Positions 802-18,075 of a stretch of 64,000 nucleotides of DNA are shown here, piece by piece. Below the pieces are notes generated by a model. The model ran no database searches. It had not been told where the DNA came from and was given only the letters and a program-made list of their open reading frames with translations. Location: positions 186,001 through 250,000 of the forward strand of contig NZ_SPQR01000005.1 in the NCBI RefSeq assembly GCF_004766055.1. The letters run 5' to 3'. The number at the start of each line of letters is the position of its first letter. Within the stretch, counting starts at the first letter, position 1. The stretch comes from Desulfosporosinus sp. Sb-LF (GTDB lineage: Bacteria; Bacillota; Desulfitobacteriia; Desulfitobacteriales; Desulfitobacteriaceae). The translations under genes and the position numbers were made by a program.

Positions 802-1001
802 AATAATTATACGATTACATGGCAATGTGTTTTATAAACTTACAACTTAATTAAAACTTACCAACTTAATTCCATTAATACAAACAAACAGTGTCGTGCG
901 CCAATTAAGTCGGTAACTAATATATCGACTATGAACATTGATATTAAGCTTAGATGTCAAATGTCATTTAAGAATAATGCGAAGCTGATAACTAAATTGG
1001 G

Positions 1002-1559
1002 TTAGTAAGCTAGTTTACTCTTTATAAATAATACTTTTATATCCTTATTTGTTGGATTTCTAAATTTATGCCTTCTGTTTGAAAGAATTCTTACAGTATC
1101 ACCTTCGAAGAGGAGAAATTCTTCATTTTGAAACTCGATATATGTTTCTCCTTCCAACACATAGGCTATTTCCTCTCCTTCATGCTGAGAAAATCCTCCA
1201 TAGGTTTCACTATTAGATTTTAGATTCATCAATAGTAGTTCGACGTTTGACTTTAACGGATTCGGAGTTAAAACGTCATATATAATATGTTTTTCATCTG
1301 GGTTGTATATTTTTTTTCGGTCTTCTTTTCTCAATATTAAAGACTCGTTATCTATCTCCTCTATAAATAGTGCAGACAAAGGAATTCCTAATACAGATGA
1401 AATAGATTTTAATGCACTTAAAGTAGGATTTCCCATATCTCTTTCTAACTGACTTAACAAAGAAGAACTTAATCCTGTTAGTTCAGCAAAATCTCTTATA
1501 GTTAAACTTTTAGCTCTTCTATGTTCAATAATTCTTTTGCCTATTTTCATATCGCCCAT
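1002..1559 (-). CDS. XRE-family regulator with C-terminal cupin domain
   Basis: Protein of 185 residues. The first ~60 residues form an XRE helix-turn-helix (TIRDFAELTGLSSSLLSQLE), and the last ~70 form a cupin barrel with the HEGEEIAYVLEGE motif. The pair is typical of small-ligand-sensing one-component regulators in the SutR/PuuR group. The start is set at the Met of MGDMKIG because AAGGAG lies 7 bases upstream; an 18-codon upstream extension has no ribosome site. The gene is divergent from the EamA transporter and shares its palindromic control region, so it most likely represses or activates that transporter. The ligand is unknown. Confidence 0.85.
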   Translation of the reverse strand: MGDMKIGKRIIEHRRAKSLTIRDFAELTGLSSSLLSQLERDMGNPTLSALKSISSVLGIPLSALFIEEIDNESLILRKEDRKKIYNPDEKHIIYDVLTPNPLKSNVELLLMNLKSNSETYGGFSQHEGEEIAYVLEGETYIEFQNEEFLLFEGDTVRILSNRRHKFRNPTNKDIKVLFIKSKLAY

Positions 1560-1592
1560 AGTCAATCTCCTTAAAATAAAACTATTTATTGT

Positions 1593-1711
1593 ATTATAGC
1601 ACAATTTGTTCAATATAATAAATATTATTCACTATATTGATATACCCTTTATGAATTGATATAATAAACCCCACTTGTTCATTATATTACACATTGTGCA
1701 ATGTAATGAAC
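1593..1711. promoter_or_regulatory. Divergent promoters and operator palindrome
   Basis: Rightward promoter: TTGATA (1637-1642), 17 bp, TATAAT (1660-1665), pointing to the EamA gene. Centred on the expected start is a palindrome with 17-bp arms (1677-1693 and 1695-1711), of which 15 positions match, beginning GTTCATTA and ending TAATGAAC. A related half-site, GTTCAATATAATAAA, lies at 1608-1622. Leftward, a TATAAT-like box (ATTATA at 1593-1598 on the + strand) faces the regulator. A repressor bound at the palindrome would block transporter transcription and could also regulate its own gene. Confidence 0.65.
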
Positions 1712-1734
1712 ACGGAAAGAGGGGGATATAAGAA

Positions 1735-2640
1735 ATGAAAAATGTAGCAGACAGAAAACCTTTGATTGCAGATATATCTCTTTTATTAGTTGCTTTAATC
1801 TGGGGAGGAGGTTTTATAGCTGCCAAAGTTGCATTATCTTGTATTACACCATTTTATCTACTGGCCTTTAGATTCATATGTTCTGGGTTACTTCTGAGCG
1901 CTATATTCTTTAAAAAAATAAGAAAAATTAATAAGCAAAGTATATTATCAGGTGTTGTCTTGGGAATAATTCTGTATGTTGGGCAAGCATTTCAAACTAT
2001 AGGACTAAAATATACCACAGCTGGAAGACAAGCATTTTTGATAGCATCCTATGCCGTATTAGTTCCCTTCATTTCATGGATGTTAACTAAAAAGAAACCT
2101 ACCATTCCATCTATATTATCAGGCTTTCTTACGTTAATTGGTATTGGCTTGTTAAGTTTACAACAAAATTTATCATTAACTTATGGAGACAGCTTAACAC
2201 TACTCTTTGCCGTTATGTTTGCGTTCCAAATAGTCTTCATAGGCATATACGCTAAAAATATTGACCCCATTCATTTAACCACTATCCAATTGCTAACAGC
2301 AGGTACTTTGGCATCAATTAGTGCACTAATATTTGAGCCAACTATTGAGTCTATAAATTATAAAAGTGTGACTGGTATCTTATATCTTGTAATATTTAAT
2401 ACAACTATTGCATTTTTAGTTCAAAATATCGCACAGAAATATACTTCTGATACCCACACTTCAATAATAATATCTCTAGAAGCAATATTTGGTTGCTTCT
2501 TATCTATCATTATATTGGGAGAGGCCTTTACTAAAAGGATGTTCATTGGCTCTATATTAATCTTTATTGCCGTAATTTTATCACAAGCTAGCAATAAGAT
2601 TCTGAATTTTAAAGGATATATAATTAAATTCTTAAGATGA
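1735..2640 (+). CDS. EamA/DMT-family transporter
   Basis: Protein of 301 residues, the usual length for the drug/metabolite transporter superfamily, with about ten hydrophobic segments arranged as two EamA repeats. WGGGFIAAKVALS near residue 23 is the typical first-helix motif, and the second repeat begins near residue 150. It is an inner-membrane carrier whose substrate (amino acid, metabolite or drug) cannot be read from sequence. A GGGGG ribosome site lies shortly before the ATG. Its expression is presumably set by the divergent XRE-cupin regulator. A strong hairpin terminator follows at 2712-2758. Confidence 0.85.
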   Translation: MKNVADRKPLIADISLLLVALIWGGGFIAAKVALSCITPFYLLAFRFICSGLLLSAIFFKKIRKINKQSILSGVVLGIILYVGQAFQTIGLKYTTAGRQAFLIASYAVLVPFISWMLTKKKPTIPSILSGFLTLIGIGLLSLQQNLSLTYGDSLTLLFAVMFAFQIVFIGIYAKNIDPIHLTTIQLLTAGTLASISALIFEPTIESINYKSVTGILYLVIFNTTIAFLVQNIAQKYTSDTHTSIIISLEAIFGCFLSIIILGEAFTKRMFIGSILIFIAVILSQASNKILNFKGYIIKFLR

Positions 2641-2711
2641 GATCTATTAATATATTTAGTGACAATCGTTGTTATTTATATGACAACATTAATTATAACT
2701 CAAAGTTGAAA

Positions 2712-2758
2712 AACGTTTTTAAGGACTGAGCATTATATACTCAGTCCTTAAAAACGTT
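2712..2758. terminator. Bidirectional hairpin, probably the original glmS terminator
   Basis: Perfect 19-bp stem (2712-2730 with 2740-2758) and a 9-base loop. On the minus strand the stem runs into CGTTTTTC, a terminator-like end; on the plus strand it ends the EamA transcript. If the transposon at 2823-16022 is removed in thought, this hairpin falls about 90 bp after the glmS stop on the same strand, so it was probably the glmS terminator before the insertion. Confidence 0.7.
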
Positions 2759-2817
2759 AAATTCTAGACAGCTATAGCTAAAAAACTCGTCTGCTAAAAC
2801 TCTTTTTCAAGATACCA

Positions 2818-2822
2818 CCAAC
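2818..2822. repeat. Target-site duplication, left copy (CCAAC)
   Basis: CCAAC directly precedes the TGT that opens the left end of the element, and the same five bases follow the ACA that closes the right end at 16022. A 5-bp duplication is the hallmark of Tn7-type transposition. Confidence 0.93.
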
Positions 2823-2935
2823 TGTTGTTTTACAATAAAGTTTGTTGTAAATAGCGTACATTTCTGGACCCATTTTTAAAATAAAGTTTGTTTATTTACT
2901 TTAATAATTCTATCATTTTTTATAATAAAGTTTGT
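2823..2935 (+). repeat. Tn7-like left end with three spaced TnsB-type sites
   Basis: Three copies of a ~22-bp site with core ATAAAGTTTGT lie at 2823-2845, 2871-2891 and 2914-2935, separated by gaps of about 25 bp. Classical Tn7 has the same design, with three separated TnsB sites in the left end and four overlapping sites in the right. Confidence 0.88.
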
Positions 2936-3164
2936 AGTAACTGAGATAAGATGATCAGTCCTTGTTGTAATCAATTGAGACTTTTGAGTATTAAGCACTC
3001 AATGTGCGTTGATGTTACTTCATTACCACCCAGACCGTTTCCCTAGATAAGCTAAAGAGAAAACACATGAAGCCTTTTAACTGAAGATTTAAAATATAAA
3101 ATAGCTTGAATAACAAAAATTGTGCTATCTGTTTCGAGAGCATCATTTAAGACTTCAACTTGAT

Positions 3165-4892
3165 TTAAACTTGTAGCATTTTTTTTACGGTCTCGATAAT
3201 AAATTTCATTGAATTAAATGCTGCTAATTCTTGATTTTCGTCAGTTTTGTCATATCCCCAATCACATATTGCTTTTACCATAATACAATCAACTTGGTTA
3301 CCAATTGCTACAGTTATTAAACCAGCACTTTCCATATCTCCGCCTATAATCTCTGACTCTTGCTCCTTTAGTGTATTTATAAAATCTTTTGAGTTAACAA
3401 GTGTTTCACCTGAAGCAATAACACCTATATGTACACCTGAGCTTGTCCAGTCAACCGCTGTCATGTCAGATATTTGCCTTAAATACGTTGAAACTTGTGT
3501 TTTATCACCTCTAGGAATAATTTTAGTTTCATTTACTTTTTTTATTTCATAATTCCATATTTGAGATGCGATTAGTACATCTCCTATCTTTTGTTTATCG
3601 GGATTCGCCCCGAAAGCAATACCGCCCATAATTATGTAATCTGGTTTGAATTTATCCATTGCTTTCGAAAGAGTCATTATTGAAGCCCCTGGCCCAGTTA
3701 GCCCCATTTGAGATTTGATAATATAAATATTCATGCTTAAAGTTATGATAGAATAATAACCAAAATCATCTGTTCTTTCATTAACTGTAAATTCATCTCT
3801 AAACATTTTCAAAGCATACCTAAGTTCAGTAATTGTTGTAACGACTACTAGTAAAGTTTTCTTTCCATTAACATCCATTGGTGATACCTCCATAAAAATC
3901 GGTTCTAATCTTCTGGCCTTATTTAAAATATTATCATAATAAAAGAGTAGATCAGTAATATTTAATGCAGGCTTAGTCGAATTTGTCGAGACATACTCAA
4001 TCAAGCCTAATCCATTATTATATCTGGCTCTCACTAAATTAGATTGTTCATTAAGTAATCCAATTCCGTTTGCAATCTTTTTCAAAATATAATACAGTTC
4101 TGGGAACATAGGATCGAGCTTAATTTCAATATATTTTTCTATAGGAAAACAACTTAGATCCAAGATCTTTTTATAAATTTTGTAACTCGTATCCCATTTG
4201 TTATTAGCTAAAAAATCATAGGCTTGTAATTGCGGTATATCAGTAATAATAGTTCCATTACCAGCATTTAGATACCTTTGTGTATATTTCTCGGAAATAA
4301 ACATTCTTAGTGAAAGCTCAATTTGCCTTTTAGAATGATAATCACTAATTTTCTCATTTAATAATTTATCAAATAAATGGATCGTTATTGCAGACTTTTG
4401 ATCACCTAATATCAAAAGTGGTACCTGCCCTTTAATGATATCAAATGCAGATGTACTAATCTTTTCTCTTAAAAAATCAAACTTTTCTTCCAAGAAATTT
4501 TTCCGTAGCAAATCAGTTGTTGAACCATTTAAAGTAATAACATTATTTCCCCAAGACGATATAGAATCATGGAAATACATTGGGTATCTATTTTGATCAT
4601 TTGCATATAATATCTGTCTACTTAATACAAAATCTTCGAGAGAACGATGATTTGTAAAAAACTGAACTATATCACATATATCTAATTGCCTTAAATATGT
4701 TGTCGTCTTTGGTAATTCTATATTACTCTCCCACAGGTGAGAATAGGAGGCATACGGAGGCCTTAGAGACATAAACATTGATTTCGCAACAATATCAAGC
4801 GCCAAATCATCAAACAACGTTAATTTAATTGACTCTCTTAGTTCTCTATCCAAAAAATGATAATAAATAGACTCAGAATTTCTTTTATTCAT
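3165..4892 (-). CDS. Large protein with C-terminal nucleoside phosphorylase/nucleosidase domain (cargo gene 2)
   Basis: About 575 residues. The last ~230 match the PNP/MTA-SAH nucleosidase superfamily: a first strand (KTLLVVVTT), the turn MGGIAFGANPDKQKIGDVLIA, and the nucleoside-binding GGDMESAGL near residue 517, followed by AICDWGYDKTD. The first ~340 residues are unfamiliar, mostly helical-looking, and may be a sensing domain. Family members hydrolyse or phosphorolyse purine nucleosides; related domains fused to sensors (for example DtcC of the Detocs system) cleave ATP during phage infection. ATG 4892 is preferred because it overlaps the upstream stop (ATGAATAA), implying translational coupling; a TTG four codons earlier is possible. 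No signal peptide is seen. A defence role is inference. Confidence 0.75.
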   Translation of the reverse strand: MNKRNSESIYYHFLDRELRESIKLTLFDDLALDIVAKSMFMSLRPPYASYSHLWESNIELPKTTTYLRQLDICDIVQFFTNHRSLEDFVLSRQILYANDQNRYPMYFHDSISSWGNNVITLNGSTTDLLRKNFLEEKFDFLREKISTSAFDIIKGQVPLLILGDQKSAITIHLFDKLLNEKISDYHSKRQIELSLRMFISEKYTQRYLNAGNGTIITDIPQLQAYDFLANNKWDTSYKIYKKILDLSCFPIEKYIEIKLDPMFPELYYILKKIANGIGLLNEQSNLVRARYNNGLGLIEYVSTNSTKPALNITDLLFYYDNILNKARRLEPIFMEVSPMDVNGKKTLLVVVTTITELRYALKMFRDEFTVNERTDDFGYYSIITLSMNIYIIKSQMGLTGPGASIMTLSKAMDKFKPDYIIMGGIAFGANPDKQKIGDVLIASQIWNYEIKKVNETKIIPRGDKTQVSTYLRQISDMTAVDWTSSGVHIGVIASGETLVNSKDFINTLKEQESEIIGGDMESAGLITVAIGNQVDCIMVKAICDWGYDKTDENQELAAFNSMKFIIETVKKMLQV

Positions 4893-6618
4893 TAGTATCG
4901 CCAAATAGCTTCAGTTGAGGGTCTATCGGATTTTCATTACTCTTAATAAATGAGATTAGATCTATCTTCTTAACTTGCTTTGCATGAACTTCAGGTTCAA
5001 AAACCACATCATCTTCTCGTATTTCAAATATTTCTTCAATCTTTGAGCCAATGGTGAAATATTTTATCTTTTTTCCATGCTTTTTAGCTAAAGCAATTTC
5101 AAATAATACTCCATCTGCAATTGGTCCAAAAACCCATAGTTCCTCACAGGTCTGGATCAATTGATTATTACCACGTCTTATAATATCCCTTGGTACCCTA
5201 TCACTCAGAAAATAATCAAATACTCTGAATGGGTTTATTGGTAAAAGCTCTTTTTTTAATACATATTCACAAATTATATCCCTGCAATAAAAATATACTT
5301 TTGATTGTGCCGTAAAAATCAATTTCATTGTATCTATCTTACTTTTTTTGATATTTAGAAACTTAATGCTGTTCTCAACTTGTTCTAGATCATCATTAAG
5401 TTCTTGAGCACAATAAATACCACTCACGAGTGCAGCTACAAGACCACGAAATTGTCCAGAACAGTCGCCAGGTACCCAGACTTTTTCATTAACCATTTTC
5501 AATTTCTGATAATCAAAAAGAGGATATTTTCCGATATACTCAATTTCCGGTCCGTAAACACTTGTATTATTTAATACTGCATCTTCGTTTAAATTAACAA
5601 GCATACCAATATATTCTTTTATAATAGAATCGCAATTTTTGCCAATAAACTTAAAATTATTATCCATATATTCGGATAAAGAAATCTTCTTCTTCGATAT
5701 ATTTTTTAATAGTTCATTTATTTCTTTTCCATAGGGGCTATTTTCTGTTTTGATTCGTATCAAAACACCTATATTTGAATGATTTGTTTTTTCGTCTAAA
5801 CTATATCCATTATATGAAACAAAATCGTCAAATTTAGATTCAAGAACAGACCCATCTTTACAGCAACAAAAAGTACGAATTTCAACACTATCATTAATCT
5901 TTTTTATAAATTTATAGTCAATTGATTTATCATTATACACATTTAATAAATCAGATAATGTTTCAATCCTAACTCCAGCTTCAACAATATAGTTATATTC
6001 CCTACTAATAAAGCCGACTTTTTCAAGTAGTATCGACCCATATTTCCCTGCAGAAAAAACAACATATTTAGCTTTATAACAACTCTGATCTTTTGTTTCA
6101 ATTATGTAGAAACCTTCTTCTTTACTAATAGAAATTACTTCAGAATTAAATTTAATGTAAGCATTTAGCCGAGAATATAAATAATTATTTAGCTCAACTC
6201 TTTGCTTGCTTGTTAAGTAAAAAGAATCATATTCCTTTCTTTCCCCAAATTCATAGAAATCCTTATTTAACCAAGATTCGTCCCATTGAAGAATATCTAC
6301 GTCTATCTCTTTCAAAATACTTTGAAATCGAGTATATGCTTCTTTGATCAATAGATTATTTGTCATTGTCCATAACTTTGTTGCAGCAGGAGGAAAAGAA
6401 AGCTTCCCATCAGAAAATAAGCCGCTGCCACCAAAACCTGAAGGCACGTCTGAAGCTATCTGGTATGATCGTTCATTAAGATGTTTACCCTTTTCTAAAA
6501 TAAGGAATTCTCGTTTTGACTTAATCAATTCATGAGCACTCATTAAACCAGCTGGCCCACCACCAATGATAATAACATCATATATATTTGAAGTAGTATT
6601 AATACTCTCGCCTCCCAA
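4885..6618 (-). CDS. FAD-dependent oxidoreductase fused to a nucleoside 2-deoxyribosyltransferase-like domain (cargo gene 1)
   Basis: Residues ~12-420 form a COG2509-like flavoprotein: Rossmann GGGPAGL at 19-25, FGGSGLFSDGKL at 62-73, and a C-terminal FAD contact, WVPGDCSGQFRGL, near 395. Residues ~425-535 are a separate domain with LLPINPFRVFDYFL and ELWVFGPIADGVLFEIALA (493 on), closely resembling DUF4406/DUF7768 proteins of the nucleoside 2-deoxyribosyltransferase fold. The fusion is unusual. The start is uncertain: TTG 6618 has no ribosome site, while GGGAGG at 6611-6616 lies 7 bases before an in-frame ATT at 6603, and no ATG precedes the Rossmann motif. The gene overlaps the phosphorylase gene by 8 bases, so the two products are probably made together. 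The substrate is unknown. Confidence 0.75.
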   Translation of the reverse strand: MGGESINTTSNIYDVIIIGGGPAGLMSAHELIKSKREFLILEKGKHLNERSYQIASDVPSGFGGSGLFSDGKLSFPPAATKLWTMTNNLLIKEAYTRFQSILKEIDVDILQWDESWLNKDFYEFGERKEYDSFYLTSKQRVELNNYLYSRLNAYIKFNSEVISISKEEGFYIIETKDQSCYKAKYVVFSAGKYGSILLEKVGFISREYNYIVEAGVRIETLSDLLNVYNDKSIDYKFIKKINDSVEIRTFCCCKDGSVLESKFDDFVSYNGYSLDEKTNHSNIGVLIRIKTENSPYGKEINELLKNISKKKISLSEYMDNNFKFIGKNCDSIIKEYIGMLVNLNEDAVLNNTSVYGPEIEYIGKYPLFDYQKLKMVNEKVWVPGDCSGQFRGLVAALVSGIYCAQELNDDLEQVENSIKFLNIKKSKIDTMKLIFTAQSKVYFYCRDIICEYVLKKELLPINPFRVFDYFLSDRVPRDIIRRGNNQLIQTCEELWVFGPIADGVLFEIALAKKHGKKIKYFTIGSKIEEIFEIREDDVVFEPEVHAKQVKKIDLISFIKSNENPIDPQLKLFGDTNE

Positions 6619-6661
6619 TAAAGCAATTGGAAATAAGTCTTACAAAGTGGAAGTTACCTTT

Positions 6662-6760
6662 TCAATTCATCACTAATTCTGGTGGAATTATACCTTCATA
6701 TTCTGGTGACGATGTTACCAAATCAACTCCCCTTACTTCAATTAAATCTAAAAGGAAGAT
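6662..6760 (-). pseudogene. C-terminal fragment of an unidentified cargo gene
   Basis: A ~32-codon frame with no start, ending ...EYEGIIPPELVMN and a stop at 6662-6664, lies just upstream of the FAD gene on the same strand. Its composition looks protein-like, but two TGA codons in a row precede it. It is best read as the tail of an older cargo gene removed when the present module arrived. Family not recognised. Confidence 0.35.
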
Positions 6761-6943
6761 TCATCATGTCTATGTCATGTTTGCTGAAAGGAGCATGGAT
6801 ATTTAAAGTGTTAACTCAAAAGTAGTTAGATAGGCCCCAATATTTAAATAAAATAGTTTACTCGATCTCAATTTCTTGCTCTTGATTTTCGATTTCTGCT
6901 TCGATAAGGGTTCTAATTGGTTCATAAATCAGTATATCTTGAT

Positions 6944-7099
6944 TTACTGCTTCTTCTCAAGCGAATTTGCAAGAATATCATGCCCATTTTTTCTTTCGCT
7001 CTTAATTATAAAAGGTGCAATTTTCTTTAAAGAATCAATATCTTCCAAGAAAATTGATCTAAACAATCTTTTGAGGAGATCAGCATTCATGTCATTCAT
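6944..7099 (-). pseudogene. Truncated N-terminus of an AAA-type ATPase-like gene
   Basis: A 51-residue frame with MNADLLKRLFRSI and IIKSERKNGHDILANSLEK. This resembles the small helical N-terminal domain that opens several AAA ATPases paired with subtilase-type partners in genome islands; the assignment is from memory of the pattern and is tentative. The frame stops before any Walker motif. A second frame (...YEPIRTLIEAEIENQEQ) follows to about 6860. A TATAAT-like box near 7185 and small hairpins lie upstream. It is most simply a decayed defence-type cargo gene. Confidence 0.4.
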
Positions 7100-7429
7100 C
7101 TCATTTCTAGCGTGTCAGTAATCATTAATTATATAGGAACACCACTAAGCGCAGAAGAGCGAGTTGCCTCTTCTTTACATCTATTATATATATAAAGGAA
7201 TATTTCAACAAATTCTCTAAATATTCCTGCCAAAAAACAAATATTTGAAAATAATAACAAAATCATTAATATTTAACCCCAACGAATTTTGTTCAATAGC
7301 TCTTTTAACTCGATTCATCCTGTATATATTTTCCATACTTATTAAACATTTAATTACATACTAGTCCGTGGAGTTGAGTTGGTGAAAGCAGCAGATAGGG
7401 CATGTCCAAATTTTAAAACTTTAATGTAG
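7100..7429. other. Non-coding stretch inside the transposon
   Basis: AT-rich sequence between the tnsE stop and the ATPase fragment. It holds a 9-bp inverted repeat (7197-7205 with 7219-7227), a small hairpin near 7151-7171, and a minus-strand 39-codon frame near 7220-7340 without a ribosome site. No further gene is recognisable. It marks the cargo/tns junction. Confidence 0.4.
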
Positions 7430-9169
7430 CTATATTTCAAGGAAATCTTCCTCTTCTATAAAATTTAAGTTCTCCCAAATAACTGCTGCCCAATCAATTA
7501 TACTCCACTTACTTAAATGCTTAACCTTAACAATTCTTAACACTGGATGATTAAGTATTTGACTCTTTCGCCAACTCCCGTAGTTGTTGATAAGGCCATG
7601 CAACAGTCCTTGTACTTCACTGAAGAGTTCGACCTCAGATAGCTTTCTTTTATCGCGAAGTTCAATTATTAGCGTTGAAAGTTGCACTTTTTCTGGTCGC
7701 TCTACCTCTAGAATGTACTTGGGTTTGTTCCTATGCTCAATTGTTACCAAAGCATATTTTCTTGGCCCGCCATCTTCATTTCGAGAAAACTGCCTTCCTG
7801 ATGGCAGCACATCTATTTTGGGTGGAGAAACCGAGATTACTGGGCTAAACCTGGCAATCACCTCTAACATGCCACGAAATTGCTCAAGACCATTGTCATT
7901 AAAACCTATAACTACATTTGGTCCCCGGAAATCCAAGGGACGCACTTCGCTGTTACCAGTATAAAAGACTTCTTCGCCTGAGAACATTACTTCTGGAATC
8001 TTTCCTGACTCTTTCTCTAAGTGGGCTAGTCGTTCCTTTTCACGAGCTTCCATTCCTGCCTTATCTTCGATTTCTCGTCTTTCCCGTTTACTAAACTGCC
8101 TATGATTTTCATGGTTATTCTTTTCTCTATAAGCATTAACCTCACGGTTTTGCCTAACTAGCTCGGGAAGTTCGGTAAATGATAAGACGTTATTAGAAAC
8201 CATACGTGTCACTGTCTTCGAATTACTTGTCGGATTATCAATTACAATCGATTTATCTTTGTTAATGCTTGAGCGTTTCTTCCTTTTAACAGCTGACCTA
8301 TGACCAATAATTTCAACGTTCTTTCTATCAGTAAAGGACTTATGCGCATACTCAATCTTTTTGTAGGGTAATTCTAAACCCTGTACTGAAACTATTTCTA
8401 AGACAATAATTGCTTGACCCTGTTGAATAGCCCTTACTTGCCATATGCAAGAACGATCCATCGGAGGAACTGCCGTAATTTTTTTGGAACCAATCAAATC
8501 CTCATCTGTTAAAGTAAAAAGGGCCAAAGGGAGGTTAATGTCACCGCGTGGGTAGACTCCATTATAAACTGAATTCCACACTTTCTTTGCTAAAGGATCA
8601 GTAATGAGCCATGCCACATGATTTACAGAAGAATCCATGATAATCTTCCTTGGCACATGTGGATCAAAGTTTATCTTTAATAACCCTTCAATTGATTTCA
8701 CATATGTAGCAACAAAGTCAATCCCGTTTGGTTCTAGTAGAGCTCTAGCCAAAGTTGCATTTGGAGTTAAAAAACTCCTGATAATTTCTACACAAGGAAT
8801 AATCACGTGCAATTCCTTGCATTGACAGACCCATACGTATTCTTCACTTGCCTCAGAATTCTTAAGCTCGATCAAACCCGACGGTAAATCTTGAACCCTG
8901 AGTAATTGGCCCTCTGATGGATTTGAAAGTGATAGACTAACTAATGTCCCCGATCTATGGAACTCACTCGGTAGACCCTTAATATAGAATTGTCCTATCC
9001 GGAAATATGGAAGTAAGCCCCATGAAATGTTAAGCAGTTTTATTGTTCCATTCTCACCTTCGAGAACTAACGGAACTTTCCATTCCTGATTCTGCTCTTT
9101 GAATGGGGATTTAATCCAAAGCAGTTGAACTGACTCACCCGGACTAAACGGCCAACCTTTAATGAACAT
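7430..9169 (-). CDS. tnsE: TnsE-like target-selection protein
   Basis: 579 residues, close to the ~540 of classical TnsE, and placed last in the tnsABCDE order. The N-terminal half (GWPFSPGESVQLLWI, ISWGLLPYFRIGQFYIKGLP) and the basic C-terminal half (ALVTIEHRNKPKYILEVERP) fit the family. A charged low-complexity linker (~290-395) contains the nuclear-type basic run KRKKRSS. Known TnsE binds 3'-recessed DNA and the sliding clamp and sends insertions into replicating conjugative plasmids. Identification rests mainly on position and overall pattern. It starts at ATG 9169, 46 bp after tnsD, with no strong ribosome site, so it may be expressed at a low level. Confidence 0.8.
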   Translation of the reverse strand: MFIKGWPFSPGESVQLLWIKSPFKEQNQEWKVPLVLEGENGTIKLLNISWGLLPYFRIGQFYIKGLPSEFHRSGTLVSLSLSNPSEGQLLRVQDLPSGLIELKNSEASEEYVWVCQCKELHVIIPCVEIIRSFLTPNATLARALLEPNGIDFVATYVKSIEGLLKINFDPHVPRKIIMDSSVNHVAWLITDPLAKKVWNSVYNGVYPRGDINLPLALFTLTDEDLIGSKKITAVPPMDRSCIWQVRAIQQGQAIIVLEIVSVQGLELPYKKIEYAHKSFTDRKNVEIIGHRSAVKRKKRSSINKDKSIVIDNPTSNSKTVTRMVSNNVLSFTELPELVRQNREVNAYREKNNHENHRQFSKRERREIEDKAGMEAREKERLAHLEKESGKIPEVMFSGEEVFYTGNSEVRPLDFRGPNVVIGFNDNGLEQFRGMLEVIARFSPVISVSPPKIDVLPSGRQFSRNEDGGPRKYALVTIEHRNKPKYILEVERPEKVQLSTLIIELRDKRKLSEVELFSEVQGLLHGLINNYGSWRKSQILNHPVLRIVKVKHLSKWSIIDWAAVIWENLNFIEEEDFLEI

Positions 9170-9215
9170 AACTCATGCTGCCCCCAACTCCTCATATATT
9201 TGCTTCAAGAATAGC

Positions 9216-11177
9216 CTAATTCAAATAATTACTGTCTCCGAAATCCTTTGTGTTTTGTAGAATACTATTACTTTCAATTAAAAGTTGAATCCGTTGAATA
9301 TCATCTTGAATAAAGCTCTCAACATTACTCAGGTATTCTGGTCTTATGCCTGCTTCCCGAATAACTTCCCATTTCTTCACAGAACCTTTACGCTGGAATA
9401 TTTCCTTTGTTACGCCAACGATACGCCGTCGCTGAAATTCGCTCACCGATTCTGAGACTTTCTCCAAAAAATCCGCTGTCCTTGGCAATTTGTCAATATG
9501 GCGCTGAATCACAGCCCGTTGACCAATTGATTTTGCTAAACGAGAAGAGGTAATTCTAACTGGCCGGGATAAGCTTAACAATTCATGATTGGCACCTTTG
9601 AGCTGGAAAAGTATTTCGATATCCCTAGTCTTCCAATCAACTCTTACCTTTGTGTCTTTTGCCAGTTTCTTCGTGAGTGGTGGGGGAAGATGTTCTTCTA
9701 ACCAATCGGGATTATTTCTATAAAACCAAGCATATTGTTTTTGTAAAGCAAAACGCATTTCAGTTCTGCAACATTCCGGGTTTTCTTTTAAAAAAACCGT
9801 AATGTCTTTAGCATAGCGTTTAAAAAAATCAGCCTTACTCTTGGATGGTCCTGGACTAACTGGTTGTTGTACCCTTATTTTACATCCAAGTTGTTCGGCA
9901 AGCCCTAATTTGTGAGCATATTTGACTATAGTGTTCGGGTCACAATTCATTATTCGTCCTATTTCCCTGAACACGACATTACCTTTTTTCAATAAGCTAT
10001 GTAGTTTTGCCTCCCATACTGGGCCAAAGTTTTTAATCCGCCCAATTCTATATTTATCCTCCGGCGTAAGATCTGGACCTCTTCGGGAATAGACAAACCC
10101 ACAATGACAGGCAAATGTACCCACTGGTTTGCGTGTTTTATAATCTGCGGAAATCTTACAATCAACTACTACTGGTTGTCTAAAGTGTTCGGCAGCGGGA
10201 TTTAAGCAATACCATGGAGGTTCACCAAAGACTGGGACTGGTCTAAAGTCATTCCGAAAAAATTCTTCAGCACTTCCACTTAGGAACATCATTAGCAGAA
10301 TATGGCGGATTGGATGTACAACTCTTTTCGGTTTTCTGGTAATAACCTTAAGCCAATTATATTCATTCCCCTTACCCAACCCTGACTCCATAATGGACAA
10401 AATACTACCACCATAAAAGCCATATATTGCAAAAGCTAGATCTTGTTGTGAAATGTGCCCTTTACTGGTCAAAAAGCCTTTGGCGTTCATCAAATGTAAA
10501 TACATTTGATGAACTCTTACCTGGCTATTGTCAATCAGATGATGATTCAGTAAATGATGTACCGATTCAGCAACCTGGTGAAGCTTTTGTTGAATATTCT
10601 CCTCCGACAAAAACTCAGGTTTTAAATCTGCTATTCGGTGATCAAACCTAATAAACTCAATTCGGCTGACTATATGGTACGATTCACGGTAATGCTTTAA
10701 CAAGCACCCATGTTTATAACAAACACTGACACCTTGAACATTATGGCTTCTTCGGAAGTACATTTCACCGTTGTCCTTGAAATCATTATCGGCGCAAATT
10801 GGGCAATATAACAGGCCTTCAGTTGAACAAACACTACCTGCCATCATACCAATCATAGCTTGAACATTACTTTTAGCGTCGGAGATCATTAAATTTAAAA
10901 TGCGTACCGCACGTTCCTTCGGTAGGAATGGACTATATAAGGGAAACAGAGTGTGGTTAAAAACTAACTGTTCTGGAGTACAGTCGGCTTCCCTATAAAA
11001 TTGGGCACAGAGATAGCCGATGTTAGTAGGGAAATGGATAGAAGGGATCTTGCTACGTGAACCGAAAACCTCAACTAAAGTATCTTTATAATCCGAATTC
11101 CCGGTTAAAAAATGATACCTTGCTATTAAACTGTATAATAATTCATCTTCGTAGGGAGTGGGGAAAAAGGGTCTCAT
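9216..11177 (-). CDS. tnsD: TnsD/TniQ-family target selector for attTn7
   Basis: 653 residues. The N-terminus (FFPTPYEDELLYSLIARYHFLTG) is the TniQ signature, and a CCCH zinc finger is formed by C125, C128, C153 and H156 (CPIC...CYKHG). The C-terminal part contains further helix-turn-helix-like segments (VFREIGRIMNCDPNTIVKYA) suited to reading DNA. TnsD of Tn7 binds the last codons of glmS and recruits TnsC, so insertion occurs just downstream. The observed position 21 bp past the glmS stop shows that this protein, or a close relative, acts that way here. It starts 3 bp after the tnsC stop. Confidence 0.93.
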   Translation of the reverse strand: MRPFFPTPYEDELLYSLIARYHFLTGNSDYKDTLVEVFGSRSKIPSIHFPTNIGYLCAQFYREADCTPEQLVFNHTLFPLYSPFLPKERAVRILNLMISDAKSNVQAMIGMMAGSVCSTEGLLYCPICADNDFKDNGEMYFRRSHNVQGVSVCYKHGCLLKHYRESYHIVSRIEFIRFDHRIADLKPEFLSEENIQQKLHQVAESVHHLLNHHLIDNSQVRVHQMYLHLMNAKGFLTSKGHISQQDLAFAIYGFYGGSILSIMESGLGKGNEYNWLKVITRKPKRVVHPIRHILLMMFLSGSAEEFFRNDFRPVPVFGEPPWYCLNPAAEHFRQPVVVDCKISADYKTRKPVGTFACHCGFVYSRRGPDLTPEDKYRIGRIKNFGPVWEAKLHSLLKKGNVVFREIGRIMNCDPNTIVKYAHKLGLAEQLGCKIRVQQPVSPGPSKSKADFFKRYAKDITVFLKENPECCRTEMRFALQKQYAWFYRNNPDWLEEHLPPPLTKKLAKDTKVRVDWKTRDIEILFQLKGANHELLSLSRPVRITSSRLAKSIGQRAVIQRHIDKLPRTADFLEKVSESVSEFQRRRIVGVTKEIFQRKGSVKKWEVIREAGIRPEYLSNVESFIQDDIQRIQLLIESNSILQNTKDFGDSNYLN

Positions 11178-11180
11178 AGT

Positions 11181-12848
11181 TTAAGCAAATTCCTCCACGT
11201 TCTTTATATACCCCGACTCATTCAGCAACTCGTAAACGTGCTTCTTTTTACCGATAGCTTGATGGAATATATGAATTAAGCCCTTACTCTCGACTGCTTT
11301 TTTGATCTTTTTGCCACCTGTACTTGCTTTAGCCGCCTTTGCATCATTTTCTTCCATAGCGGTTTTAATAGCAAGTTGCTTTATTTTTAAATAATCTTCA
11401 TTTACTCCAAGTTCATTAACTATTCGTGTAGCGATCCCTTCAAAGTCACGTTGATTCAGATTACTTAAAAAGCCTAATCCTGTAAGGTCGAACATCAAAG
11501 TCTGCACTTTGCTTTTATGCTCAATTGTATCAAGTTTTTCAAGGCTTTGAGTAATCGACGCGATCTTACCATTCAAATCCAATTTTTCCCGTTTAGAATT
11601 TATTATCTTTTCCATGTCTATAGCAACATCTTCGAGCTGTGCTAATCTCGCCCGATCATTATCTCGAAGTGCCCTTATTATGTCACTGACCATATAAAGA
11701 TCTTCGTTCGCAGTATTAAGAATTATCTTTTCGGTTATTCTTTCATCATCTGTAAATAAGGCTCTCTCTTGAGCCAGCAAAAATAGACTAACTGCAATAG
11801 CAGTAATACCCTGAGACTGTTCATACATCAGTTCAGCTAATTCGTTAGATAAAGGAGTATGGATTTTGAGCCATTGAAATTTCCACATGGTCTTTAAAAA
11901 TAAATCCCATTCCTCATCAGGCGCCATTCTATCCCAATAAATGCTTTTTTGACTTGCAGCTCGTCTACTTTGCCTAAGTTCTTTAGTTAGTACCTTTAAA
12001 GCTTTAAAAGTTCCGATAAGGATAATTGGAACACCAATTTTATTCTCTAAAGTGACTAAGAAATTCAGAAGTTCGTCTGGATCAGTCTTTTTACTGATAA
12101 GATGCTGCATTTCATCAATTGCGATTACACCGACCGAATGAATGGTAGCAAGACGCTCCATATCTATCATCATTTTCCCTCTGGAGTTTCTAGCATCACC
12201 GAATTTATCATAATAATTTGTCTCTAGAACATCATCAACAGCCTTAAAAAAAATCTGGCAGAAAGTTTTTAGCGAACCATCAAACGGGCAATCAAGTTTG
12301 AGCCAGACAATCTGAGTTCGGTTCAAAGCCATACCCTCATATTTCTTAGTATGTCGAATTACTTGAGGATACATTTTAAGTAGTTTTTCAATAGCTGTTG
12401 TTTTTCCGATACCACTAATACCAATGATACTTAAAGTAAGAGCACTCGACTTAATATCTTTAAATCCCTGAAAGGTAACAGATTCTATTAGTTTTTCATC
12501 CTGCTCGGATATTGAATGTATACGTTGGTTAAAGTCCTTCTGTTTAATAGGATTTCTAGCAATATAACCTCTTCTTAACATACTAGAAATGTTTCTCGCT
12601 AAGTCAAAGTGAATATTCCAAGGCATAGTAAAATGTTTAAGCCTCTGAATAACATCAAATCTTATCTCCTTCTGAAGTTCGAGATCCGAAGACGAATGGA
12701 GAGGCCTTGAAAACATGTATTCGAACAACTCTTCCTCAGTATAAACGTCTGGCAACGCCTCAACGAGTGGATTATTGTTATATTCTTGGAGCGGGTGTTT
12801 ACTATATATTGCATCTACTTCGAAACAGTTTTGCAAATTGTACTTCAT
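11181..12848 (-). CDS. tnsC: TnsC AAA+ regulator of transposition
   Basis: 555 residues. Walker A is GISGIGKTT (143-151) and Walker B VIAIDEMQ (about 241-248), followed by a sensor segment near VPIILIGTFKA. TnsC forms ATP-dependent filaments on DNA, connects the target selector (TnsD or TnsE) to the TnsA/TnsB transposase, and gives target immunity. The ATG lies one base after the tnsB stop, with AGGAAGGA about 9 bases upstream, so the two are co-translated. The Lys-rich tail (KKIKKA) is typical. Confidence 0.93.
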   Translation of the reverse strand: MKYNLQNCFEVDAIYSKHPLQEYNNNPLVEALPDVYTEEELFEYMFSRPLHSSSDLELQKEIRFDVIQRLKHFTMPWNIHFDLARNISSMLRRGYIARNPIKQKDFNQRIHSISEQDEKLIESVTFQGFKDIKSSALTLSIIGISGIGKTTAIEKLLKMYPQVIRHTKKYEGMALNRTQIVWLKLDCPFDGSLKTFCQIFFKAVDDVLETNYYDKFGDARNSRGKMMIDMERLATIHSVGVIAIDEMQHLISKKTDPDELLNFLVTLENKIGVPIILIGTFKALKVLTKELRQSRRAASQKSIYWDRMAPDEEWDLFLKTMWKFQWLKIHTPLSNELAELMYEQSQGITAIAVSLFLLAQERALFTDDERITEKIILNTANEDLYMVSDIIRALRDNDRARLAQLEDVAIDMEKIINSKREKLDLNGKIASITQSLEKLDTIEHKSKVQTLMFDLTGLGFLSNLNQRDFEGIATRIVNELGVNEDYLKIKQLAIKTAMEENDAKAAKASTGGKKIKKAVESKGLIHIFHQAIGKKKHVYELLNESGYIKNVEEFA

Positions 12849-12849
12849 G

Positions 12850-15045
12850 TTATTCTATGTCCTTCCTAAACTTTTCTTCAATCCTCTTCTCCATCATCTC
12901 CAACATTGATCTTTTAGCTGAAGTCTCGGGATCGATTCCGCGCGAAGGTATGTGGTTACTTGATTCACTATTATTAACTAAGAAGGGAATTACTTCACCT
13001 GATTTAGGTTGTGCCGCCCCAAGGTTGAACTGTTCTTCTTCTCTTCTTTGAGACTTTTCATCGGCCCTATTTGTAGAAATGTTCTTAGTCCTTTGAGCCT
13101 TGCTGGTCTTTGGTTTTGTCTTTTTTTGTTTATCAGTTTCTTTCTTTGCACTCTTCAAGATTGCTCTGGTTGCCATATCGTGATCAGCATTGTTTTGTGA
13201 TTCTTCATCTATGGCATCCTCTAAACGCTCTGCCAACAACTCGCTGTGAAATCGAGCTTCTTCCCAGTAAAGGTTGGCGTAATCCTCACTCTTCTCCAAT
13301 AAGTTAGCAACACTAAAGGATTTTCCGTCTTTGGTGGGTAAATATACTACACTAATATCCCTTGGGTCATATGCAATTACCTCACTACGCCTTTTTGGAT
13401 TAATAAACCAACCTTCCGCTAATGCCTTCTCGAAACTATAATAACGACCTTCAAACTTAATTCCTTGTCTTAAAATACTTGCTTTGGCTCTTGGTAATAA
13501 ATTCAATCTCACAATTTCACGAGGGAAACTGTGAAAACATCCCTTTTTATTTTCCATTCCCCAACGCCATATCACGATCGGCTTAGGTATTACTCCCGAA
13601 GCGTGTAATTCCGTGGACAACGGATACTTAGTCATGACGTGTTTGTTATGCCATATTACATCCCTTATCATTAACCCTGTGAATTCTTTAACAGTTAGTT
13701 CTGCTTTTAAACGATGGTCCTCTTCACAGCGTTGTCTATACTCTCGATCGATGGCACCGGGTAGCATATGTTTTATTCTGTCATTGACTGTTCGAAAATG
13801 CCTTTCCACGATTCCCTTTAAATCCCCGCGGTATGGGGGAGTAATATCCACCTCAACATTTAGATTATTTATTAAATTGTCAGCATTTAAGCCCTCCATT
13901 TCTCCACCATCAGCAATAATTCTTTCAGGCAGTCCTTGGCAGGGCCACTCTTCTTCCGAAATACGAATGTCGTACTTACTGCAAAACGCAACCTTATCAT
14001 CCACAATATTATCGATAAGCATCATGGCTCCGACCCATGAAGGTCCTTCTAAACCGACATATATCCCTGCAACCATTCTTGAATACGTATCGATAGCTAC
14101 ATATACAATTGGTCTTCCAATTATTTTGGTTCTATCAAGGCTGCTCACCAGATAGACGTCCGCAATTGTTGCGTCTACTTGATATTCAGATCCCGGCCCC
14201 GATACCTTTGATGTTGAATCTCCAAGCAATTCACGGAGTTTAAGGTTAAATTCCCTTTCACTATGGCGGTCAATGTAGTCCTGTTTTTCATCCTTTTCCT
14301 TCAAATACCAGTATCGGAATTGTGTGTATGTAGGTCTCCGATCCTTGCCCCATCTCTTTACCTTTTTCTCCCCGTTTTCTGTATAAGGAGTAGAGAAGTA
14401 TGTATCGAGGAGATAGTTATAAGCATCTGTTAAAGTTGGTTTTTGTTTAGTTCGATACTTTGTGTCAATGACTAGCCTGAATAAATTAAGTTCAGCTTTG
14501 CCAATGTTAATTCCCACTTTATCAGGATCACGGTATTTTGGCGGTCTACCTCTCTTTATTTCCGTACTCTTGCGGTTTTTACCTGGGTGCCCACAATTGT
14601 TGTAATCAAGTAACAGCGCATTTTTAGTCATACCTCGTTGCCAAAAACGCTTAATTATACGATCAACTTTATATTTAGGTAGTAGAAACTTGTCACACGC
14701 TTGTCGGACTAATTTAGATCTTGTACTTCTCGTTAACATCGCTATCGGCTCTTTAGCCCAAAGACATTGAACTAAATCCCAGTCTTTATCCCTAGCTTCT
14801 CTTAATGAAGAAGGAATATCTTCATCTCTCCAAGTTCTTGCGTAAGGGTCAGGGATAATAACTAGTTTTCCAGTATCCAAACCCATTTCAAGTTCATCTA
14901 CTGTTGTCATAAAAGGGAGAGACCCTTCGTCAGATAGATCCACAAGAAATGCATATTCCTCCTCTTTCCAGATTACTCTCTGGCGCTCGATCTTTTCATT
15001 GTCTTGACTCTTTACTCTTTGTATGACTGTATTAACTTGTATCAC
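12850..15045 (-). CDS. tnsB: TnsB DDE transposase
   Basis: 731 residues, near the 702 of Tn7 TnsB. N-terminal helix-turn-helix domains (~100-150) recognise the end repeats. The rve/DDE core has D291 (EYQVDATIAD), D379 (RIIADGGEME) and E414 (GIVERHFRTVND). A C-terminal beta-barrel and a charged Lys-rich tail (KKETDKQKKTKPK) follow; the tail of TnsB contacts TnsC. It joins the 3' ends of the element to target DNA. The GTG start overlaps the tnsA stop (GTGA), which suggests strict coupling of the two transposase subunits. Confidence 0.95.
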   Translation of the reverse strand: MIQVNTVIQRVKSQDNEKIERQRVIWKEEEYAFLVDLSDEGSLPFMTTVDELEMGLDTGKLVIIPDPYARTWRDEDIPSSLREARDKDWDLVQCLWAKEPIAMLTRSTRSKLVRQACDKFLLPKYKVDRIIKRFWQRGMTKNALLLDYNNCGHPGKNRKSTEIKRGRPPKYRDPDKVGINIGKAELNLFRLVIDTKYRTKQKPTLTDAYNYLLDTYFSTPYTENGEKKVKRWGKDRRPTYTQFRYWYLKEKDEKQDYIDRHSEREFNLKLRELLGDSTSKVSGPGSEYQVDATIADVYLVSSLDRTKIIGRPIVYVAIDTYSRMVAGIYVGLEGPSWVGAMMLIDNIVDDKVAFCSKYDIRISEEEWPCQGLPERIIADGGEMEGLNADNLINNLNVEVDITPPYRGDLKGIVERHFRTVNDRIKHMLPGAIDREYRQRCEEDHRLKAELTVKEFTGLMIRDVIWHNKHVMTKYPLSTELHASGVIPKPIVIWRWGMENKKGCFHSFPREIVRLNLLPRAKASILRQGIKFEGRYYSFEKALAEGWFINPKRRSEVIAYDPRDISVVYLPTKDGKSFSVANLLEKSEDYANLYWEEARFHSELLAERLEDAIDEESQNNADHDMATRAILKSAKKETDKQKKTKPKTSKAQRTKNISTNRADEKSQRREEEQFNLGAAQPKSGEVIPFLVNNSESSNHIPSRGIDPETSAKRSMLEMMEKRIEEKFRKDIE

Positions 15046-15899
15046 CCTGCAAACACCTCAATATCAGCCGATTTACCAACACTAATCTTTTGAGGAGTAT
15101 CAAATTTTAGTTTTACTGTATCGATATCCATGTTAATTTGTTTGGTATAGAGCAAGTGTTTAAATATTGAGAGACTTGTCCCAATTTCCAATGTCATTCT
15201 ACTGTCGAAGTCATGGGCCATATCGCGGATCACAACCCTATTGCCAGAAACGGTTTGCTTAAAGGCGCTTATAAGAGCGTTTCTATTTTTGACCGAAATA
15301 CTTCTTAACCCATCTAAGTTGGATAGGTCATGGCAACTCCGTAAATCATTTAAGTTTCTTGCTAATACCTGGTTTATCTCTAGTTCCGTAACAATGCCCC
15401 AATCAAGGCCTTTGGACTTCCAATAACGTCTTTCAATCTCAAATTTTTGAATAATTCGTTCGTCCATAAGCTCGCCCTTGGGTTTAACGGTTCTGATCAC
15501 ATCGACAGTACCATTTTCATCTTTTATCGTAATTCTAAAATCACTCGACATGACAATTGGATAATTACTTACTGGATCGGTTGGAGGTTCAATACCGCAT
15601 TCTTTTGCGATGGCAAGAGTCTCAGTCAATTCAAAGAGGGGAAACTGCTCACGAATATCAACCACTGAATCTCGATACTCCAATATAAGAAAATAATCTC
15701 GTTCGAGATTTGACAGTAAATGGTGTTCTCTTTTGATTTTAGTTCCGGCAATTCTGGATCTTCCGCCTTTTGACGGAACATCATGGATAGTCAACCACGG
15801 TTTATAGTTTTCACCATATCCAGAACCCCTGCCTTCTTTAATCCATTTAGCCTGCTTTTCAGGTGTTTCAACCCTATTTCTTTTTGCCAAAAAAAACAC
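15042..15899 (-). CDS. tnsA: TnsA endonuclease subunit
   Basis: 285 residues from GTG 15899. TnsA resembles a restriction endonuclease and cuts the 5' ends, making Tn7 transposition cut-and-paste. Likely catalytic residues are E66 (NLERDYF), D120 (SSDFRI) and K139 (TVKP), matching the spacing of E63/D114/K132 in Tn7. The GTG directly abuts AAAGGGG; a TTG at 15890 lies 8 bases after that site and is the better start, giving 282 residues. The ribosome site is buried in a hairpin with a U-run (15889-15930), so translation and transcription of the whole tns operon may be restrained. Confidence 0.93.
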   Translation of the reverse strand: MFFLAKRNRVETPEKQAKWIKEGRGSGYGENYKPWLTIHDVPSKGGRSRIAGTKIKREHHLLSNLERDYFLILEYRDSVVDIREQFPLFELTETLAIAKECGIEPPTDPVSNYPIVMSSDFRITIKDENGTVDVIRTVKPKGELMDERIIQKFEIERRYWKSKGLDWGIVTELEINQVLARNLNDLRSCHDLSNLDGLRSISVKNRNALISAFKQTVSGNRVVIRDMAHDFDSRMTLEIGTSLSIFKHLLYTKQINMDIDTVKLKFDTPQKISVGKSADIEVFAG

Positions 15900-15930
15900 C
15901 CCTTTCGATGTTATTCTACATCAAAAGGGG
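15889..15930 (-). terminator. Terminator-like hairpin guarding tnsA
   Basis: On the minus strand a 13-bp stem (15918-15930 with 15899-15911, one G-U pair) closes a 6-base loop and runs into TGTTTTTTTT. This is a textbook intrinsic terminator, about 120 bp after the glmS stop and at the tnsA start. It also hides the tnsA ribosome site in its 3' arm. It should stop glmS read-through from entering the tns operon and limit transposase synthesis. Confidence 0.75.
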
Positions 15931-15937
15931 GCTATTC

Positions 15938-16022
15938 AAACATTCTTTATTATAAAAATACAAACTATTTTATTAAAGTACAAACTTTATTATGAAACAA
16001 CAAACTTTATTATGAAACAACA
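15938..16022 (-). repeat. Tn7-like right end with four packed TnsB-type sites
   Basis: Read from 16022 inward, two identical 23-bp sites (16000-16022 and 15980-16002) overlap by three bases and begin TGTTGTTTCATAATAAAG. Two weaker copies follow (15960-15980 and 15938-15960). Four contiguous sites in the right end against three spaced sites in the left is the asymmetry that orients Tn7. Confidence 0.9.
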
Positions 16023-16027
16023 CCAAC
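16023..16027. repeat. Target-site duplication, right copy (CCAAC)
   Basis: Directly follows the terminal ACA of the right end and matches 2818-2822. The distance to the glmS stop codon (16049-16051) is 21 bp, close to the ~25 bp of Tn7 in E. coli. Confidence 0.93.
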
Positions 16028-16048
16028 AGGCGTTTATACAATAGCTTC

Positions 16049-17872
16049 CTACTCCACTGTCACGCTCTTTGCCAAATTCCTCGGCTTATCAACGTCACAC
16101 CCCCTGGCCACGGAGACATAGTAGGACAGAAGTTGCAGCGGTATGACTGTGAGGATCGGAGAAAGCTCATCCATGGTCTCTGGAATATAGATCACATGAT
16201 CGACCGATTTCGTCAAGCTGGTGTTTCCTTTATAGGTCAGTCCAATCACTTTAGCATCCCGGGCTTTTACCTCTTTGATATTAGAAATGGTCTTTTCGTA
16301 TACATCCCGTTGGGTTGCCAGCGCAATGACGGGTGTATTTTCTGTGATCAAGGCCAATGTGCCGTGCTTTAACTCGCCAGCTGCATAGGCTTCGGCATGG
16401 ATATAGGAAATTTCCTTCAACTTCAGGGATCCTTCCATCGCCACAGCCCAATCTAACGAACGGCCAATAAAGAAGGTATCTTCCACGTTGACAAACGACT
16501 TTGCCAACTCCTTGATGAGGCTCTCTTGATCCAGGATTTCTTGGGCTTGAGCGGGAATTCTCTGCAAAGCGGTAATAATTTCCCCAATCTTTTCGGAAGG
16601 TAAAGTTCCTTTGACCTGAGCAAGATAGAGTCCAAGTAAAACCATTCCTTCCAGCTGAGTCGTGTATGCTTTCGTAGACGCTACTGCGATCTCGGGACCA
16701 GCCCAGGTGAAGATGACATCATGGGCTTCTCGGGAAACCGTGCTTCCCACGACATTAGTTACTGCAACCACGCGCGCGCCGCGGTTTTTGGCTTCACGTA
16801 GGGCCGCCAAGGTATCAGCTGTTTCTCCAGACTGGCTCACTACCACGACCAAAGTATGCTCATCCACAAGGGGTGAGCGATAGCGGAACTCCGAGGCAAT
16901 GTCCACTTCAACTGGGAGGCGTGCCCAACGTTCAATCAAAGTCTTGCCGACAAGCCCAGCATGCCAAGCAGTACCACATGCAACAATATAAACCTTGTTA
17001 ATTTGCGCCAGTTCTTCAAGGGTTAGATCCACTTCTTGAAGAACGACTTTCTGTTCTTCCAAGCGGCTCAACATCGTATCCTTCAAGGCACGAGGTTGTT
17101 CATGAATTTCCTTAAGCATGAAATGTTCATACCCGCCCTTTTCTGCGGCCACGGCATCCCACTTGACGTTATAGACTTCTTTCGTATGAGGATTTCCTTC
17201 GAAGTCTGAGACTTTTACCCCATCTTCAGTGATAACTACCATTTCTCCATCATCTAAGATATAGACTTTGCGTGTCTGGTTCAAAATCGCTGTAATGTCG
17301 CTCGCCACGAAGAACTCCCCATCTCCAAGGCCTACAACCATAGGGCTATCTTTACGAGCGGCCACCAATTTATCAGGTTCCTGGCGTCTAAGCGCGACCA
17401 TCGCATAGGACCCGCGAACCGTTTTTAAGACTTTCCGAACTGCCCCCTCAAAGTCTCCCTCATAAAAGTCTTCAAGTAAGTGGGCTAGAACTTCCGTGTC
17501 AGTTTCTGATACAAAATGATGTCCCTTTTCGATGAGCTTGTCTTTTAATTCCAGGTAATTTTCAATGATTCCATTATGCACCACCACAAAATCCTGTTTG
17601 CAATCGCAATGGGGGTGAGCATTAAGGTGTGAAGGGCGGCCATGGGTTGCCCAGCGGGTGTGTCCGATTCCAATGCACGACTGGGAATAATTCTCCCCGA
17701 GTTCTTTTTCTAAAGCGACTAATTTACCTAAACTTTTGGAAATAACAAGTTCATTTTGATCTACGACCGCTACCCCTGCCGAATCATAACCCCGATACTC
17801 TAGCTTTTTTAAGCCCTCCACCAAAATAGGAATAGCCACCTGTTTTCCAATATATCCTACAATTCCACACAT
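16049..17872 (-). CDS. glmS: Glutamine-fructose-6-phosphate aminotransferase (isomerizing)
   Basis: 607 residues. It makes glucosamine-6-phosphate from fructose-6-phosphate and glutamine, the first step to UDP-GlcNAc. The N-terminal class II amidotransferase domain begins MCGIVGYIG, with Cys2 as nucleophile; two SIS sugar-isomerase domains follow, and the conserved end is DKPRNLAKSVTVE. That end region is the sequence TnsD reads, and the Tn7-like element lies just beyond it. GAGGAG precedes ATG 17872. The ribozyme at 18076-18216 and a hairpin terminator at 17972-18006 lie in the leader, so expression is probably shut down by glucosamine-6-phosphate. Confidence 0.98.
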   Translation of the reverse strand: MCGIVGYIGKQVAIPILVEGLKKLEYRGYDSAGVAVVDQNELVISKSLGKLVALEKELGENYSQSCIGIGHTRWATHGRPSHLNAHPHCDCKQDFVVVHNGIIENYLELKDKLIEKGHHFVSETDTEVLAHLLEDFYEGDFEGAVRKVLKTVRGSYAMVALRRQEPDKLVAARKDSPMVVGLGDGEFFVASDITAILNQTRKVYILDDGEMVVITEDGVKVSDFEGNPHTKEVYNVKWDAVAAEKGGYEHFMLKEIHEQPRALKDTMLSRLEEQKVVLQEVDLTLEELAQINKVYIVACGTAWHAGLVGKTLIERWARLPVEVDIASEFRYRSPLVDEHTLVVVVSQSGETADTLAALREAKNRGARVVAVTNVVGSTVSREAHDVIFTWAGPEIAVASTKAYTTQLEGMVLLGLYLAQVKGTLPSEKIGEIITALQRIPAQAQEILDQESLIKELAKSFVNVEDTFFIGRSLDWAVAMEGSLKLKEISYIHAEAYAAGELKHGTLALITENTPVIALATQRDVYEKTISNIKEVKARDAKVIGLTYKGNTSLTKSVDHVIYIPETMDELSPILTVIPLQLLSYYVSVARGCDVDKPRNLAKSVTVE

Positions 17873-17971
17873 ATGTGTTTTGCTCCTCTCATCATACCTA
17901 TTTTTTCAATTCTAATCAATTTCAGTACTTTCTTACGCGCTTAATGAACCACAATCCCCTTTGTGTCTACC

Positions 17972-18006
17972 GTAAAAAATAAAAGTCGCCCCTACACGGA
18001 CGACTT
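17972..18006 (-). terminator. Terminator-like hairpin between ribozyme and glmS
   Basis: On the minus strand AAGTCGTCC pairs with GGGCGACTT (9 bp, one G-U) around a short loop and is followed by TTATTTTTT. It sits after the ribozyme and ~100 bp before the glmS ATG, so transcripts must read through it to express glmS. An upstream hairpin (about 18024-18066, CAAGGGG with CCCCTTG) lies between the two. Confidence 0.65.
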
Positions 18007-18075
18007 TGTTGCTTCACATTTTAGGCAATACAAGCAAGGGGGTCAAATGCACACACTATCCCCTTGTCTTGTCAA

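Follow-up and report, generated by a model that had tools for sequence, protein, structure and literature searches.

The window, a 64,000-nt stretch of the Desulfosporosinus sp. Sb-LF genome, contains at positions 2823-16022 a Tn7-like transposon of 13,200 bp with CCAAC on either side (Table 1). Seven intact genes lie within it, each read from the minus strand: tnsA, tnsB, tnsC, tnsD, tnsE and two cargo genes. The element begins with TGTTGTTT at 2823 and ends with AAACAACA at 16022, with 24 of the first 26 positions shared between the two ends. At the left end, a 23-nt unit recurs in three spaced copies starting at 2828, 2874 and 2918; the right end is built from four abutting 20-bp units (15940-16019), a periodicity matched by none of 1000 shuffles. 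Repeated TnsB-type end sites and a 5-bp duplication, both of them features of the family, are present here. The original prediction took the near identity of the ends as a hint of recent insertion, a reading we reject because TnsB needs the ends as binding sites and thereby keeps them under selection. The genome holds a single copy of the element, which gives no direct sign of recent movement. Outside the left end, a 22-nt inverted repeat (95% complementary, 3-nt loop) at 2712-2758 forms a terminator-like hairpin.

Table 1. Features of the element and its flanks, in window coordinates
Feature	Position	Strand	Evidence
Probable right-end remnant of an older Tn7-like element from another family, just outside the left end	2795-2817	.	
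Target-site duplication CCAAC, left copy	2818-2822	.	sequence
Left end: the terminal TGTTGTTT, then TnsB-type sites at 2828-2850, 2874-2896 and 2918-2940	2823-2940	+	
Cargo gene 1, 579 aa: N-terminal half without assigned domain, C-terminal PNP_UDP_1 (MTAN-like)	3165-4904	-	PF01048 5.9e-14; PADLOC PDC-M60C 1.8e-22
Cargo gene 2, 577 aa: FAD-dependent oxidoreductase, C-terminal DUF7768	4885-6618	-	Pyr_redox_3 6e-13; PF24963 9e-8; phrog_355 3e-6
51-aa stub similar to the N-terminal part of IetA, the AAA ATPase in the IetAS defence pair	6944-7099	-	IetA profile 0.0016
tnsE, 579 aa	7430-9169	-	PF18623 8.3e-7, above cut-off; profile match 5d17/5d16 5.7e-7
tnsD, 653 aa; CCCH zinc motif C125, C128, C153, H156	9216-11177	-	PF15978 1.3e-100; 8glu 1.7e-29
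tnsC, 555 aa; Walker A at 143, IDE at 244	11181-12848	-	8glu 3.8e-73
tnsB, 731 aa; D291, D379, E414	12850-15045	-	Tn7 TnsB 7pik 5.4e-106
tnsA, 285 aa; E66, D120, K139	15042-15899	-	structure match 1t0f 6.8e-41
Right end: four TnsB-type sites of 20 bp each, directly adjoining, with the terminal TGTTGTTT (minus strand, inward)	15940-16022	-	
Target-site duplication CCAAC, right copy	16023-16027	.	sequence
glmS; TnsD presumably recognises its 3' end (attTn7 rule, available text of PMC2918618)	16049-17872	-	

The first four tns genes are tightly packed, with a 4-nt overlap between tnsA and tnsB and gaps of 1 nt between tnsB and tnsC and 3 nt between tnsC and tnsD, and their products all match Tn7 structures. 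TnsA and TnsB make up a heteromeric transposase with its catalytic residues in place, alongside the AAA ATPase TnsC. We checked TnsB for disabling changes at D291, D379 and E414, which we take to be the DDE triad; the three residues are as given in the original prediction, align with the Tn7 chain and are invariant among four TnsBs. In TnsA a threonine replaces the glutamine of the Tn7 chain two residues ahead of the conserved lysine. TnsD is a target selector of the TniQ/TnsD type with a long C-terminal domain, and its CCCH motif has its equivalent in C124, C127, C152 and H155 of Tn7 TnsD, according to the available text of PMC2918618. The fifth protein is divergent, reaching 29.4 bits against Pfam TnsE_C (cut-off 26.7 bits), a weak score, and 22-26% identity to the other Gram-positive TnsEs aligned. 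A single-sequence search of the PDB with it matched no solved structure; the structure match in Table 1 was obtained with a profile built from the window TnsE and six others. It aligns over its full length with these six relatives, with 17 columns invariant over the seven TnsEs, and carries a long charged linker that is absent from all six. The Pfam score, the alignment and the profile match together identify it as TnsE.

The right end of the element lies 26 nt from the glmS stop codon, and the insertion past glmS is at a fixed distance with the right end proximal. A comparable offset of 24-26 nt, with a recognisable end, was found in 42 of the 48 glmS-adjacent relatives among the best-scoring TnsB loci described below, the other six being off this pattern; for Tn7 itself, the accessible part of PMC2918618 places the insertion point ∼20 bp beyond the stop. 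The original prediction of a complete five-gene Tn7-like transposon in a Firmicute attTn7 site is hence borne out by the genes, both ends and the position next to glmS, and the anatomy it gave (CCAAC, three plus four end sites, tnsABCDE order and a glmS-proximal right end) was right wherever we checked it. It made no mention of the two cargo genes or of the gap of 811 bp, containing a gene stub, downstream of tnsE.

To place the element among its relatives we scanned genome_contigs (84,980 species genomes) with a TnsB alignment, which returned 262 confirmed stretches, the best 80 of which gave 79 loci; these represent the best-scoring TnsBs and are no sample of Tn7-like elements overall. Using a profile built in this analysis, we found tnsE in 57 of these 79 best-scoring loci, and in 55 of the 66 whose sequence continues for 6 kb or more downstream of tnsB. 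In 48/79, glmS is no more than 400 bases away from the tnsA frame, and 40/79 combine this adjacency with tnsE. The TnsB tree comprises the window and 74 of the 79 loci, five having been omitted for their short TnsB frames, and 66 of the 74 are from Bacillota. Within it, the window pairs with locus L099 (TnsB identity 54-55%, support 100), and the two are placed inside a clade of 61 rows, most of them Bacillota. Counted by genome, TnsE_C occurs in 4 of 398 genomes of the phylum, our own included, and in 1 of 82 of the class, and at the protein level TnsE is present in 1 of 29 genomes of the genus and in none of the other 28. Set against 57/79 loci, these low counts indicate that TnsE is rare per genome and usual in this transposon lineage, and its absence from the other 28 genus genomes fits a horizontal arrival of the element. 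No match to TnsE was found in a scan of viral contigs, and our literature search found nothing joining TnsE with Desulfosporosinus.

The retention of tnsE in a Gram-positive host, which the original prediction singled out, is therefore not special, and the available part of a review agrees, describing TnsE as "almost universal" in glmS-targeting elements. The portions seen of two surveys assign tnsE to the full operon in Tn7 relatives (2023; PMC10293859) and to two of four clades (2021; PMC8649781), and Tn7-like tnsABCD sets have been published for a Bacillus cereus island since 2008 (PMC2359905, accessible text). The element is ordinary for its family, and many Firmicutes carry relatives. Related elements also occur on plasmids: among Gram-positive plasmids, annotated TnsE is found on Exiguobacterium p1 and on the Staphylococcus plasmid pLEW6932 (NC_009130.1), the latter with a full tnsABCDE set. 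The pLEW6932 element has the same five-gene order (TnsB 41% and TnsE 22% identical to ours) but is plasmid-borne and surrounded by arsenic and other metal-related genes. In another relative, L100, tnsC-D-E lie ∼5 kb away from tnsB, with an extra TnsD-like fragment in between. Tn7 of E. coli has the tnsABCDE order, a 5-bp duplication, and three left and four right sites, all of which the window element shares, as it does the right end by glmS and homology of TnsA, TnsB, TnsC and TnsD across long stretches; the window element differs in being far diverged, in its cargo and in its end sequence TGTTGTTT.

L099 (JAQUIZ010000038, from a Fermentimonas sp. MAG, a label that may be a binning error) has the closest TnsB among the best-scoring loci, and resembles the window element in having tnsE and in what comes after it. 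Directly 3' of tnsE it carries a full ietA and ietS (14457-15467 and 15491-18076), in contrast to the 51-aa stub of the window, and there is no glmS on the stretch of L099 examined. To the left of its tnsA, genes at 780-5390 resemble BREX PglZ and BrxL on visual inspection. An IetA relative also sits just past tnsE in three further loci of the best-scoring 79. The only PADLOC match of the stub at E ≤ 10 is to the start of IetA (0.0016, profile positions 3-47); tblastn returned six plasmid records, all of AAA or ATP-binding proteins (best 9e-5), and in Pfam there was a sub-threshold iSTAND match and nothing else. Aligned pairwise with the gap, the L099 IetA scored at best 21.2 bits, with shuffles reaching 22.7, and given this the assignment of the stub rests on the profile match, the plasmid tblastn and its position. 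From these, the 51-aa frame is probably an ietA remnant. Complete ietA and ietS genes are absent from the window, and we do not count the element as a member of IetAS; we found no literature joining IetAS with Tn7-like elements.

Cargo genes 1 and 2 overlap each other by 20 nt. The DUF7768 domain of cargo gene 2 resembles nucleoside 2-deoxyribosyltransferases, and the PADLOC profile that matches cargo gene 1 is a candidate-defence profile. Matches to cargo gene 2 occur in 133 of 398 phylum genomes, our own included, and apart from the gene itself none of the listed matches covers both of its parts. Cargo gene 1 is matched in 15 other genomes of 299, in its C-terminal part only, and a scan of genome_contigs with its N-terminal half gave 50 pattern matches and no confirmed relative; its fold, predicted for the gene alone, had a mean pLDDT of 30, too low for use. 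No equivalent of the pair was seen in the 79 best-scoring loci, where gene 2 had one weak match (L168), and neither gene had a match in viral contigs, nor cargo gene 2 in phage records. Among the neighbours of their plasmid relatives, no paired PNP and FAD genes are named. A role in defence would be a guess from the domains and the mobile setting, and we regard as doubtful the more specific idea that ietAS gave way in this element to an undescribed anti-phage module for nucleotide processing, made up of the overlapping genes.

Beyond the left end, the flank read outward from glmS begins with GTTGG and continues with TGGTATCTTGAAAAAGAGTTTTA, which has the form of a Tn7-like end. We lean towards reading it as the right end of an older element that was pushed outward by the present insertion, with our confidence held down because the match is short. 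With up to two mismatches, the 22-mer of this flank is found in 2 of 29 genus genomes, including our own, and controls gave zero; in the other genome, G020, it sits in a repeat array just downstream of glmS, and in G015 a similar end, the variant TGATATCTTGAAA, likewise lies past glmS. The alternative, that the left flank is simply the native intergenic sequence and that a simple empty site once existed, draws on the match to the G020 array being limited to ∼20-25 bp and on the finding that no second site nearby rose above shuffled counts. We consider it the weaker of the two, though far from negligible, given the 22-mer just past glmS in G020, the G015 end and the lack of left-flank synteny near glmS in the relatives. 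Searches of the 28 other genus genomes with the left-flank DNA, by flank blast and with the 22-mer pattern turned up no empty site. Arrays with a 20-21-bp period (p ≤ 0.01) lie just past glmS in 12 of 27 scored genus genomes, window included, a count that leaves out two arrays at lags 18 and 23 as well as G005 (broken glmS end) and G024 (no flank). Such arrays (L007, L011, L013 and L022, for example) often have no tns genes in the stretch examined, and across 28 genus flanks, several of them short, TnsA-, TnsB- and TnsD-like genes were seen in four, the window's included, and a TnsD fragment in a fifth, G008. The remnant ends and arrays around glmS suggest that attTn7 is a repeatedly hit site in the genus. 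Separately, 71 nt following the EamA gene (2634-2704) are 92% identical to G015 C3:106578-106649, which is off the glmS contig of that genome.

We conclude, with a probability of roughly 0.93, that the element is a cut-and-paste transposon, structurally complete and belonging to the common tnsABCDE lineage of Firmicutes. Points against this reading are the failure to find an empty site, the divergence of TnsE, the threonine in TnsA and the single genomic copy. Genes, motifs, ends, duplication and position are observed directly, and activity, end binding and the TnsE route are taken by analogy from the family. On this basis, the seven end sites would be bound by TnsB, the element would be excised by TnsA and TnsB, and TnsC would connect these to the target selector. 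TnsD would read the 3' end of glmS and direct insertion ∼26 bp beyond the stop codon, in fixed orientation and with a 5-bp duplication, and TnsE presumably opens a second route, leading into plasmid-like DNA undergoing replication; targeting of conjugative plasmids through TnsE is plausible. The single genomic copy, and the decay within the element implied by the degraded gap and gene stub after tnsE, could instead fit a complete-looking relic, now immobile through point changes or absent expression, which we think unlikely because all five tns frames are open with their key residues retained, the 5-bp duplication is perfect and the ends are conserved. It is more improbable again that 7430-9169 encodes a TnsE homologue past selecting plasmid or replication targets, leaving the TnsD route as the only one used: its weak TnsE_C score and unshared charged linker would allow this, but the protein aligns over its full length, keeps the 17 columns invariant over seven TnsEs, and has a counterpart of similar length (566 aa) in the nearest relative.

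With the transposon described here, the tnsABCDE group of Firmicutes gains a divergent, structurally complete member. According to the available part of a review, mechanistic studies of TnsE are confined to prototypic Tn7, and a new TnsE-bearing element is useful for this reason. In the cargo position after tnsE, uncharacterised genes appear to have taken the place of a known defence pair.
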